Position numbers and translations under genes: made by a program. Shown piece after piece: positions 43,874-53,998 of a stretch of DNA of 64,000 bases. A model generated the notes under the pieces. That model made no database searches, was not told where the DNA came from, and saw nothing but the letters and a program-made list of their open reading frames with translations. The DNA comes from Actinomycetes bacterium (GTDB lineage: Bacteria; Actinomycetota; Acidimicrobiia; Acidimicrobiales; Palsa-688): positions 1 through 64,000 of the forward strand of contig JAJZMF010000004.1 in NCBI GenBank assembly GCA_021850325.1. The letters run 5' to 3'. Every line of letters starts with the position of its first letter. The first letter of the stretch is position 1.

Positions 43874-44100
43874 GCGGTGTCCTTTCGAGGTGCCGCGGAC
43901 GGTTCGAGACAATCCTTCCGGTGGTCGTATGACCGCTCCGTGAAGGGAACGTGAGAGTCCTCTAACCGAGACGGGCACCCGGGGAGCGGCCGGCCCCCAG
44001 GCGGGCGTGGAGCCTGGCGGGCACGGCGGCGCAGGGCGTGGGAGCGCTGGAGACCTGTTCAGAGGTGGTGCGCGGGTAGGCGGGGGCACCCCGGGTTGCC

Positions 44101-49479: not shown

Positions 49480-49679
49480 GCCGCCTCGTACCCGGCTTCT
49501 TCGATGGCGGCCCTGAGGGCACTGTCGTCCAGGCCCTCACCGGTCACCGTCACGAGCTTGGTACCGAGGTCGACCTCGACCGCAGCGACCCCGGCCACCG
49601 AGCTCAGCTCGCTGCTCACGGCGTGCTTGCAGTGGTCGCAGGTCATGCCGGCCACCGTGTAGGTGATCGTCTCGCTCAT
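49476..49679 (-). CDS. copZ: Copper chaperone CopZ
   Basis: This 67-residue ferredoxin-like heavy-metal-associated domain protein has the Cu(I) site GMTCDHC (C14, C17) and the closing GYEAA. It should carry Cu(I) to CopA or CsoR in the cytoplasm. It is the first gene of the copZ-copA-csoR operon, starting downstream of a promoter that overlaps a CsoR-like palindrome. Confidence 0.93.
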   Translation of the reverse strand: MSETITYTVAGMTCDHCKHAVSSELSSVAGVAAVEVDLGTKLVTVTGEGLDDSALRAAIEEAGYEAA

Positions 49680-49744
49680 CGCCGTCTCCTGTCTGCCGGT
49701 TCCTGCCGGCCGGTGGCACCCGGTCCCTGCCCGGGCCTCGCCCC

Positions 49745-49772
49745 ATTCTACCTCAGGTACCCCTAGGGGGTA
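49745..49772 (-). promoter_or_regulatory. Promoter and CsoR-type operator of the copper operon
   Basis: On the minus strand a good -10 (TAGAAT, 49745-49750) is preceded at 17 bp by a weak TTACCC. The palindrome TACCCCTAGGGGGTA (49758-49772) covers the spacer and -35. Repression by CsoR would be relieved by copper. Confidence 0.75.
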
Positions 49773-49867
49773 ATAACGACAGGCACTGGGGGGCAGGGGC
49801 CAAAGTCCTGCCCGAGCAGGCCGGCCCGGCGCAGGGCCCTCCCGGCGCAGGCGGCAATTGACCAGTA

Positions 49868-49922
49868 GTTCGTAGGCCGTTCACCGGCAGTCCATGTTCT
49901 GTACACTCGCCGGTCAAGATGG
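49868..49922 (+). promoter_or_regulatory. PHO-box-like array of five 11-bp repeats before ugpB
   Basis: Consecutive 11-bp units start at 49868 (GTTCG), 49879 (GTTCACC), 49890 (GTCCAT), 49901 (GTACAC) and 49912 (GGTCAA). The phase and the G[TG]TCA-type heads match the PhoP-binding direct repeats described in streptomycetes. They end 50 bp before the ugpB start codon. The TTCACC/TACACT pair (49880-49885 and 49902-49907) could also read as -35/-10 with 16 bp, but activation by PhoP fits the gene function better. Confidence 0.75.
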
Positions 49923-49971
49923 GCCGTTAGCTTCCGCGGGACAGACCTTTGCGAAGAAAGGAACCAGCCTC

Positions 49972-51378
49972 ATGCGCCATTCCAAGATCCGGTCCGCCAA
50001 GGGCCGTCGGCCCCGCGTCACGAGGGGTGCCGCCCTCGCCCTGACGGGTACCGCCCTGCTCTCGGTGGCCGGGTTGGCCGGCCCGGCCGGTGCGACCCCG
50101 CGCCCGGCACTTAAAGCGGCCGGCTCCCCGGTGACCATCAACGTGTGGACGGCCTTCAGTGGCACTCTGGGCACCACCTTCCAGCACCTGGTGGACGAGT
50201 TCAACGCCACCCACCACGCCTACAACGTGGTGGCCACCTACAAGGGCAGTTACTCGACCGTGCTCTCGGACACCATCGCTGCCTTCCGGGCCCATGCCGC
50301 CCCCGACATCGCCCAGGTCTTCGACGCCGGCACGGCCACCATCATGGACTCGCCCAGTGCCTACGTGCCCGTCTACTCGCTCATGGCCAAGTACCACATC
50401 CCCTTCGCCACCTCGGACTTCATCGGCGGCGCGGCCAGCTATTACGAGACGGCACAGGACCAGCTGGACTCCATGCCGTTCAACAGCTCGACCCCCGTCC
50501 TGTACTTCAACAAGACCCTTCTCGCCAAGGCCGGGATCACCTCGGCGCCGAAGACCTGGGCCGAGCTGAACACCGACGCCAACGCCCTGGCCGCCCACGG
50601 CGTCAAGTGCGCCCTCAGCTCGACGGGTGCCTACGTCATGTGGACGGACATGGAGGAGTTCGCCATGTGGAACGGGTACCCGTTCGCCACTCAGGACAAT
50701 GGTTACAACTCGATCAAGGGCGTCACCCTCAAGATCGACACGCCGCCCTTCATCGCTCACCTGTCCATGTTGGGCCAGCTGGCCAAGAGAGGCCTCTACC
50801 AGTGGAACGGGGTGACCAACAGCACGGTGCCTCTGTTCACGGGTGGTACCTGCGCCATGTACGAGCAGAGCTCAGCCTCGCTGAACAGCATCGCCGCCGC
50901 CGCCAAGTTCCCGTTCGGCGTCGCTCCACTGCCCATCGTGTCCGGTGACGTGCGCGCGCCCCAGAACACAGTGGTGGGCGGGGCCTCGCTGTGGGTGCTC
51001 TCGGGCGCCCCCAAGGACACCTACAAGGGTGACGCCGAGTTCCTCCACTTCCTGATGTCGGCTTCGACCCAGGCCTACTGGGCCAGCCACACCGGCTATG
51101 TAGCCGTGACCAACGCCGGCGTGTCCCTGCTCACCCGGGAGCACTTCTACCGGATGCACCGCAACGACCAGGTGGCGACCAACGAGCTGACCAACAAGCC
51201 CGCCAAGGCCTGGACCCGGGGTATCAGGCTGGGCTACCTGCCCGAGATCCGCCAGGACGAGGCTGCCGCCATTGCCCAGGTCCTGTCGGGCAAGGAGACC
51301 GCTGCCCAGGCGCTGGCTACGGCCCAGTCCCAGGGCGACGCGATCCTGTCCCAGTTCGCTGCCCAGTATGGCGGCTAG
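49972..51378 (+). CDS. ugpB: Glycerol-3-phosphate ABC transporter substrate-binding protein
   Basis: The 468-residue protein is a clear UgpB relative. Segments such as TYKGSYSTVLSDTIAAFR, PFNSSTPVLYFNKTLLAKAG, APQNTVVGGASLWVLSG and NKPAKAWTRGIRLGYLPEIR follow the family pattern in order. It binds sn-glycerol-3-phosphate or glycerophosphodiesters outside the membrane. A Sec signal (about 1-40, ending near AGAT) lacks a lipobox cysteine. ATG 49972 is preceded by AAGAAAGGAA. The frame opens at 49894, but the signal peptide starts here. It is the first gene of a ugpBAE-ugpQ operon. Confidence 0.92.
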   Translation: MRHSKIRSAKGRRPRVTRGAALALTGTALLSVAGLAGPAGATPRPALKAAGSPVTINVWTAFSGTLGTTFQHLVDEFNATHHAYNVVATYKGSYSTVLSDTIAAFRAHAAPDIAQVFDAGTATIMDSPSAYVPVYSLMAKYHIPFATSDFIGGAASYYETAQDQLDSMPFNSSTPVLYFNKTLLAKAGITSAPKTWAELNTDANALAAHGVKCALSSTGAYVMWTDMEEFAMWNGYPFATQDNGYNSIKGVTLKIDTPPFIAHLSMLGQLAKRGLYQWNGVTNSTVPLFTGGTCAMYEQSSASLNSIAAAAKFPFGVAPLPIVSGDVRAPQNTVVGGASLWVLSGAPKDTYKGDAEFLHFLMSASTQAYWASHTGYVAVTNAGVSLLTREHFYRMHRNDQVATNELTNKPAKAWTRGIRLGYLPEIRQDEAAAIAQVLSGKETAAQALATAQSQGDAILSQFAAQYGG

Positions 51379-52396
51379 GGACGGCGCTGCTACCGCAGAG
51401 CGCCCGAGCGGCGAGCTCTCGGCAGTGGTAGGACCAGGCCCGGCTCCGGCCGGGCCTGGGGCCTTCCTGGTCGCGGCCCGGCGCCGCCGTGCCCGGTCGT
51501 CGGGTGACGGCGGGGCCGGTCCGGCCATCTTCAAGCACCGTCTGCTGCCTTACCTGCTGCTGCTGCCCCAGCTGGCCGTGGTGGCGACGTTCTTCCTCTG
51601 GCCCACTGTGAAGGCTGTCATCGAGGCGTTCCAGCAGACGAACGCCTTCGGCCTGGGCTCCCGTTTCAGCGGCTTCCAGAACTTCGTCGATGCAGTGGCC
51701 AACGGCAACTACCTGCAGTCCATCGAGGTGACCCTGGTGTTCGCCGCGCTGACCACCGTGCTCGGCATGGCCATCGGGCTCTTCCTCGCCACCCAGGTGG
51801 AACAGGTGGGACGGGGCAGGGCCGTCTACCGCGCACTGTTCGTGTGGACCTACGCCGTGCCGGGCGCCGTGGCGGGCGCGCTCTGGTTGTTCCTGTTCCA
51901 ACCCGACCTCGGGCCCGGAGCGCGCCTACTTGGCCAGCTCGGCGTCAAGTGGAACTTCGCCCTGCACGGCACGCAGGCCATGGGCCTGATCGTCGCCCTC
52001 ACCGTTTGGCAGCAGTCGGCCTACAACTACCTCTTCTACACTGCGGCCATGCAGGCGGTTCCGGGGGAGGTGCTCGATGCGGCGTCCGTGGACGGGGCAG
52101 GCAAGCTGGCCCGGTTCTGGCGCATGACGTTCCCCCTGCTGTCGCCCACCACGTTCTTCCTGTCGGTCATGAACGTCCTGTACGCCTTCTTCTCGAGCTT
52201 CGCCGTGATCGACATCGTGACCCAGGGAGGGCCGGCCGGGGCCACCAACACGCTCGTCTACCAGCTCTACCGGGACGGTTTCCAGAACGCCGACACCGGC
52301 CTGGCCGGAGCCGAGACGGTGGTGCTCGTCCTCATAGCGGGGGTTTTCACCGTGGTCCAGTTCCGGATGTTCAACCGCCGGGTGCACTACCGATGA
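51368..52396 (+). CDS. ugpA: Glycerol-3-phosphate ABC transporter permease UgpA
   Basis: The 342-residue permease has a cytoplasmic tail of about 60 residues before the first of six helices (LLPYLLLLPQLAVVATFFLWP). The EAA loop is GEVLDAASVDGAGKLARFWRMTFPLL. The C-terminal VQFRMFNRRVHY fits UgpA. ATG 51368 lies inside the last codons of ugpB (11-bp overlap) and the stop overlaps ugpE by 4 bp. No ugpC ATPase gene follows, unlike the enterobacterial operon. Confidence 0.88.
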   Translation: MAARDGAATAERPSGELSAVVGPGPAPAGPGAFLVAARRRRARSSGDGGAGPAIFKHRLLPYLLLLPQLAVVATFFLWPTVKAVIEAFQQTNAFGLGSRFSGFQNFVDAVANGNYLQSIEVTLVFAALTTVLGMAIGLFLATQVEQVGRGRAVYRALFVWTYAVPGAVAGALWLFLFQPDLGPGARLLGQLGVKWNFALHGTQAMGLIVALTVWQQSAYNYLFYTAAMQAVPGEVLDAASVDGAGKLARFWRMTFPLLSPTTFFLSVMNVLYAFFSSFAVIDIVTQGGPAGATNTLVYQLYRDGFQNADTGLAGAETVVLVLIAGVFTVVQFRMFNRRVHYR

Positions 52397-53235
52397 GGCC
52401 GCGCCGCCGGGCCGAGGTCCTGCGCCACGTCCTGCTCATAGTGGCGGCCGCAGTGCTGGCCCTGCCCATCTACCTTGCCTTCGTGGCCGCCTCGAAGCCG
52501 GCCACCGCGCTCCTGCAGGGTGTGCCCCTGGCACCAGGGGGCCAGCTGGGCCACAACCTGTCCCAGGTCCTGGTGCACGGCCTCCCCGACTCGCCCACTG
52601 TCCTGTCCATGATGGGCAACTCGGCCGTCATGGCCCTGGCCGTGGCACTGGGGAAGTTGCTGCTCTCGGTCCCCGCTGCCTACGCCGTGGTCTTCTTCCG
52701 CTTCAGGGGGAGGATGGCGGCCTTCTGGCTCATCTTCGCCACCCTCATGCTCCCCATCGAGGTGCGCTTCTTCCCCACGTACCAGGTCACGGTACAGCTG
52801 GGCCTGCTCAACAACCTGGGGGGCCTGGTCGTGCCCCTCATCGCTTCTGCCACGGCGGTTTTCCTGTTCCGCCAGTACTTCATGACGTTCCCCGTTGCCC
52901 TGGCTGACGCAGCCCGCCTCGACGGCATAGGGCCGGTGCGTTTCCTGACCCGTATCGTCCTCCCTCTGTCCAAGCCCAACCTGGCTGCGGTCTTCGTGCT
53001 CGAGTTCATCTATGGGTGGAACCAGTACCTGTGGCCTTTGCTCGTCACCTCGAGCGCCCACAACGCCACGGTCGTGATGGGCATCAGGGAGATGATCGCG
53101 TCCGCCCAGAGCTTCGCCGTCCCGCAGTGGGACCTGGTCATGACGGTGGCCCTGCTGGCCCTGGTCCCACCGGTGGTGGTGGTCCTGGTGATGCAGCGCT
53201 GGTTCGTGAAGGGCCTTACCGCCGGGATCAGCTGA
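52393..53235 (+). CDS. ugpE: Glycerol-3-phosphate ABC transporter permease UgpE
   Basis: The 280-residue permease matches UgpE. FATLMLPIEVRFFPTYQVTVQLGLLNN is the conserved family stretch, the EAA loop is VALADAARLDGIGPVRFLTRIVLPL, and QRWFVKGLTAGIS is the typical end. It has six predicted helices and overlaps ugpA by 4 bp (ATGA). It forms the pore with UgpA. Confidence 0.9.
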   Translation: MRPRRRAEVLRHVLLIVAAAVLALPIYLAFVAASKPATALLQGVPLAPGGQLGHNLSQVLVHGLPDSPTVLSMMGNSAVMALAVALGKLLLSVPAAYAVVFFRFRGRMAAFWLIFATLMLPIEVRFFPTYQVTVQLGLLNNLGGLVVPLIASATAVFLFRQYFMTFPVALADAARLDGIGPVRFLTRIVLPLSKPNLAAVFVLEFIYGWNQYLWPLLVTSSAHNATVVMGIREMIASAQSFAVPQWDLVMTVALLALVPPVVVVLVMQRWFVKGLTAGIS

Positions 53236-53302
53236 CCGGGTCGCCGGGCTGGGGACGAGGGAGCGGGAGACGACCGTGCAGGGTCTGGGAGGAGAAGACA
53301 GG

Positions 53303-53998
53303 ATGACAGAGATCTGGTCGCACCGGGGCTACGTGGACGGGCCCGGGAGCATTGCGGAGAACACCGTGGCCGCCTTCGCGGCCGCCTCGTCGTGTGGGGT
53401 GCAGGGGATCGAGCTGGACGTGTGGCGGACCGCTGACGGAGCCTGGGCGGTCCACCACGACCGGGGGGTCGCAACGGGCAACCTGGACGAGCTGCGCTGG
53501 GAGGACGTGCCCCCCGACGTGCCCAGCTTGTCCGAGGCGCTGGCGTCGTGCCGGGTGGACGTGGTCAACGTCGAGCTCAAGGTGGCCGAAGAGGCCTGCG
53601 GGGCACAGGGCCGGGCCCTGGGCGCGGCGTTGGCTGCAGAGCTCGTCGGCCAGCAGGGAGCAGGCGGCTCCCGGGTGGTCGTCTCGTCCTTTTGCCGGGA
53701 GGCTGTCGAGGAGGTCCTCGCCCTGGGGACCGGTCTCCCGGTCGGGCTCCTGGTCGGTGGCGCCCTACCGGACGGGTTGGTGGGCGAACTTGCCCGAGCC
53801 GGTTACTGGGCGCTCCACGCCCACCACTCCGTGCTCGACCAGGAGACGGTGGCCCGGGCGCACGAGGCGGGCCTGCGGGCCGTCGCCTGGACCGTGGACG
53901 ACCCCGAGGAGATGCACCGCCTCGTCGCGGCGGGGACGGACGTGCTGATCTCCAACCTCCCCCGGCTGGGCCTGCAGGCGGCCTCGGGCCACGTCTGA
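53303..53998 (+). CDS. ugpQ: Glycerophosphodiester phosphodiesterase (UgpQ-like)
   Basis: The 231-residue TIM-barrel enzyme hydrolyses glycerophosphodiesters to glycerol-3-phosphate and an alcohol. Catalytic and metal motifs are present: SHRG near the start, ENTVAAF, GIELDVW and VHHDRG, and near the end AVAWTVDDPEEMHRLVAAGTDVLISNLP. There is no signal peptide. It acts on substrates brought in by the ugpBAE importer encoded just upstream. GGAGGAG precedes ATG 53303, which is preferred over GTG 53276. Confidence 0.9.
   Translation: MTEIWSHRGYVDGPGSIAENTVAAFAAASSCGVQGIELDVWRTADGAWAVHHDRGVATGNLDELRWEDVPPDVPSLSEALASCRVDVVNVELKVAEEACGAQGRALGAALAAELVGQQGAGGSRVVVSSFCREAVEEVLALGTGLPVGLLVGGALPDGLVGELARAGYWALHAHHSVLDQETVARAHEAGLRAVAWTVDDPEEMHRLVAAGTDVLISNLPRLGLQAASGHV

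Follow-up and report, generated by a model that had tools for sequence, protein, structure and literature searches.

The operators bound by PhoP in Streptomyces are assembled from 11-nt units with the core GTTCACC (PMC4415409, PMC7866108). Those of Streptomyces coelicolor glpQ1 and glpQ2 contain four and five units, respectively, overlap the −35 region, and include some units that are poorly conserved (PMC7866108). Elsewhere, phosphate-responsive regulators have been connected to the uptake of glycerol-3-phosphate: phosphorylated PhoR (PhoR~P) of Corynebacterium glutamicum binds the ugpAEBC promoter and activates ugpAEBC (PMC3353115), while Escherichia coli ugpBAECQ is a PhoB target belonging to the Pho regulon (PMC4415409).

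Here, we describe an array of this type in a window of DNA (the whole analysed stretch of 64 kb) from a 221-kb contig of a 3.18-Mb acidimicrobial genome. As in the Streptomyces glpQ1 and glpQ2 promoters, it consists of consecutive 11-nt GTTCACC-type units of variable conservation, overlapping the predicted −35 position and lying before genes for the utilization of glycerophosphodiesters (PMC7866108, PMC4415409). Unlike in Streptomyces, which has no ugp transporter cluster (PMC7866108), the array precedes ugpBAE and a glycerophosphodiester phosphodiesterase (GDPD) gene. The same kind of transporter operon is under a phosphate-starvation two-component regulator in C. glutamicum (PMC3353115), but the PhoR motif there is of the CCTGTGAA type, with 8-bp repeats separated by a 3-bp linker, and the gene order differs. 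With the E. coli PhoB pho boxes, it shares both the 11-bp repeats and the ugp operon, whereas the core there is CTGTCAT and ugp is additionally under CRP (PMC4415409). The array element and the link to ugp both have precedents; the locus represents a new instance, in this lineage, of an 11-bp GTTCAC array joined to ugp.

The array occupies positions 49868–49922 of the forward strand and, as an earlier note on this DNA had read directly from the sequence, is formed by five gapless units in exact 11-bp phase, with both coordinates and phase as given there. These are unit 1, GTTCGTAGGCC (49868–49878); unit 2, GTTCACCGGCA (49879–49889), the best match, with an exact GTTCACC; unit 3, GTCCATGTTCT (49890–49900); unit 4, GTACACTCGCC (49901–49911); and unit 5, GGTCAAGATGG (49912–49922). 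Units other than the second show one or two mismatches among the six GTTCAC positions, with two each in units 1, 3, and 5. One period upstream of unit 1 lies a possible sixth, degenerate unit, ATTGACCAGTA (49857–49867), a weak match that lifts the six-unit score to the best of the window. Downstream, a predicted −10 hexamer of the form TANNNT, TAGCTT (49928–49933), begins exactly 16 bp after the start of unit 5.

We then scored runs of three to six units against GTTCAC across the 64-kb window at periods from 6 to 22. At period 11, the array tops the three-, four-, five-, and six-unit scores, and at none of the other periods in this range is its four- or five-unit score matched anywhere in the window. 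Further, 6 Mb of simulated third-order Markov sequence contained no equal of the array at any unit number. The head-to-tail 11-bp geometry, the GTTCAC-like heads, the predicted −35 position, and the operon downstream all fit the PHO-box-like reading offered earlier, and support a predicted PHO-box operator that is a well-formed yet ordinary example of an established type of genetic switch. The accompanying suggestion that five units make an unusually long array is unsupported, because about five units are standard in the family and Streptomyces glpQ2 likewise has five (PMC7866108).

Profile matches identify the downstream genes as ugpB, ugpA, ugpE, and a glycerophosphodiesterase. The first, ugpB (49972–51378), codes for a 468-aa substrate-binding protein of a glycerol-3-phosphate ABC transporter (SBP_bac_8; NF008211 UgpB, E = 1.4e-109, 366.6 bits, below the curated cut-off of 411). 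It is followed by a ugpA-like permease gene whose start is not settled (51362–52396; NF007852, E = 9.5e-88, 294.9 bits, below the cut-off of 335), by ugpE, a second permease gene (52393–53235; NF008210, 317.9 bits, above the cut-off of 297), and by a ugpQ-like GDPD gene (53276–53998; PF03009, E = 1.5e-25), all on the forward strand. As UgpB and UgpA score under the NCBIfam curated cut-offs, the substrate of the transporter is a prediction. No ATPase gene was seen within the ugpBAE–GDPD operon. The ugpB start at 49972 is preceded by a likely ribosome-binding site, AAAGGA (49957–49962, direct reading), and followed by a signal-like sequence. A longer ugpB frame, which opens at ATG 49894 and passes through the array, is probably not used.

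On the other side of the array, a palindrome, TACCCCTAGGGGGTA (49758–49772), is found upstream of a CopZ-like gene (about 49480–49680, minus strand), which is followed by genes for a copper P-type ATPase and a CsoR/RicR-like repressor. This palindrome is probably a CsoR operator.

The earlier note had proposed scanning the genome for GTTCAC repeats at 11-bp spacing, and such a scan recovered arrays before other phosphate genes too. For the whole genome, we relied on searching for patterns, with their reversed forms as controls, in place of a full PWM scan. A degenerate four-unit pattern run over all 3.18 Mb placed the ugpB array second and that of a Pi:H+ symporter gene first. Three units combined with a TANNNT hexamer returned eight matches in the same genome against none for the reversed control; here, the ugpB array came first and was the sole match with no more than two mismatches. 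Beyond ugpB, arrays precede pstS (C32), pstBCA and a response regulator gene (both C13), the Pi:H+ symporter gene with phoU divergent from it (C45), and a PehA-like esterase gene (C17). The heads of the C45 array read, in phase, GTTCG, GTTCA, GTTCA, GTACA, GGTCG, and GTTCA.

The C17 gene (L048/L116) codes for a PehA-like phosphoric/sulfuric ester hydrolase, and its PHO-like array has TAGCCT at the 16-bp phase; it is a probable member of the Pho regulon. Within the window, we also observed a second, weaker 11-bp-phased run of GTTCAC-like units (43934–43978, minus strand) with genes for a nucleotide-sugar epimerase and two glycosyltransferase-like proteins downstream. About 0.06 runs with its score are expected by chance per window, and TANNNT is absent from its 16-bp phase. 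This run could reflect phosphate-controlled synthesis of glycolipids.

Across 32 genomes of the family, three units with a −10 element at 16 bp gave 28 matches as against one for the reversed control. Many of these lie before genes for pstS, pstB, the Pi:H+ symporter, phospholipase C-like proteins, PAP2 phosphatases, and response regulators, while some are likely noise. Two of the matches in the window's own genome were also set aside as noise: L047, which is inside a coding sequence, and L049, which has no recognized phosphate gene. Control patterns with periods of 10 and 12 gave 13 and 38 matches, respectively. We rejected the period-12 matches as a signal: their reversed control is raised to a similar extent, as expected from codon periodicity, and they resemble coding repeats.

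With respect to the regulator, the genome codes for a RegX3-like response regulator (C32) that adjoins a histidine kinase and has the acidic residues, the aspartate, and the lysine typical of such proteins. The earlier attribution to PhoP stands as regards the operator class, but a RegX3/PhoP-type regulator fits better than PhoP by name, given the RegX3-like pair in the genome. A pair of the SenX3–RegX3 type is the likely regulator, and the C32 protein with its kinase would be the cognate one. We considered and rejected the C5 counterpart of L056, an array-bearing regulator of another genome (G011), for this role: there is no array before the C5 gene.

A second, pst-linked RegX3-like paralogue (L024, 3917–4741, minus strand; C13) has a receiver domain without the acidic pair and without the conserved lysine. 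Among proteins with solved structures, its closest relative is RegX3 of Mycobacterium tuberculosis. This and the presence of a RegX3-like/histidine kinase pair recall the mycobacterial SenX3–RegX3 system, a likeness drawn from similarity and not from a tree, from which the genome differs in having the extra pst-linked paralogue with its degenerate receiver. Copies of the paralogue from seven other genomes, which are 64–71% identical to it, all lack the lysine, and six of the seven lack the acidic pair; the exception, L096, retains Glu-Asp.

The ugpB operator might then be used mainly by the degenerate-receiver paralogue rather than the canonical RegX3-like protein, with control that may be independent of phosphorylation. 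The paralogue's gene has its own array on one side and pstBCA on the other, and its RegX3-like DNA-binding domain has been kept across eight genomes. We nevertheless hold this to be unlikely: close copies of the paralogue were not found in most genomes of the family, including one with a clear ugpB array (G020), and the canonical RegX3-like protein and its kinase are encoded as well. A related proposal, which we put forward only tentatively, is that a stereotyped family promoter (some five repeats of 11 bp, then 5 bp and the −10 element) is served by both proteins, the canonical RegX3-like regulator and the pst-linked paralogue. The latter, with a receiver devoid of the conserved lysine and, in most copies, of the acidic pair, might tune these shared operators without being phosphorylated.

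Transcription could also start elsewhere than from TAGCTT while the array itself is real. Unit 4 contains TACACT (49903–49908), a better −10 than TAGCTT, and TTCACC (49880–49885), 17 bp upstream of TACACT, could act as its −35, which would leave only units 1–3 as the operator. This arrangement is quite improbable in light of the conserved geometry. We ranked seven periods (8–14) against 20 offsets (8–27) from the last unit to TANNNT, i.e., 140 combinations, in six ugpB orthologues of the family with the window left out. The combination of period 11 and offset 16 came first with three units; with four, it was second to period 11 and offset 27, which is the same phase one unit on. The 16-bp spacing is common to the window and to orthologues that have no TACACT at that place. 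The same test on eight intergenic regions between the response regulator gene and pstB, picked by homology of the regulator protein (six of the eight have a readable array), again ranked period 11 with offset 16 at the top, whether two, three, or four units were scored. A period of 11 is just as clear upstream of the gene for the pst-linked regulator, but TANNNT has another best offset there: the 16-bp phase is taken by GACACT, which is not TANNNT, in three relatives and in the window's own genome.

ugpB has its relatives in Acidimicrobiaceae, in Acidiferrimicrobium, and in metagenome bins related to them, which points to an acidimicrobial actinobacterium as the host. The array architecture is conserved upstream of the six orthologues. 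It is absent in the sense orientation from the distant homologues L018, L019, L020, and L022. Upstream of these four, GTTCAC-like 11-bp repeats sit on the opposite strand, which suggests another promoter arrangement or a divergent gene.

The nitrogen regulator GlnR, a competitor of PhoP at some Streptomyces promoters, binds two sites with an 11-bp spacing; its consensus is gTnAc-n6-GaAAc. A GlnR operator would have the same period and would be recognized by a related OmpR-family protein. Yet, going by this consensus, none of the five heads (0/5) has the form GTNAC, and the other arrays of the genome sit before phosphate genes, making a GlnR site very improbable. A chance array, or coding repeats in the open ugpB frame that reaches upstream to 49894, is already contradicted to the point of being scarcely credible. 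Simulating 6 Mb of sequence produced nothing comparable, the start at 49972 is marked by a Shine-Dalgarno-like site together with a signal-like sequence, and the orthologues' arrays lie upstream of their start codons.

We return to the PHO-box operator, for which our confidence is high: a phosphorylated regulator on the array would activate ugpBAE and the GDPD gene from TAGCTT when phosphate is scarce. In low phosphate, a phosphorylated OmpR/PhoB-family regulator, most likely that of the C32 SenX3–RegX3-type pair, would bind the array head-to-tail over the −35 region, with one monomer per 11-bp unit on a single face of the helix. The better-matching units 2 and 4 would probably nucleate binding, with the poorer units being filled cooperatively. 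The regulator on the most downstream unit would hold RNA polymerase at TAGCTT, standing in for a good −35 element, and the transporter and glycerophosphodiesterase genes would be switched on. Activation graded by the number of units, as raised in the earlier note, is possible.

Among the best 20 of 96 literature matches, there is no description of PHO boxes in acidimicrobial bacteria. With the array and its relatives, the Pho regulon of actinobacteria would reach into a family of these organisms, and a ugp operon would come under the control of an 11-bp operator of the GTTCAC type, a type that Streptomyces deploys without ugp. The shared layout, 11-bp units with the last one starting 16 bp from the −10 element, may further serve as a rule for predicting phosphate-regulated genes throughout the family.
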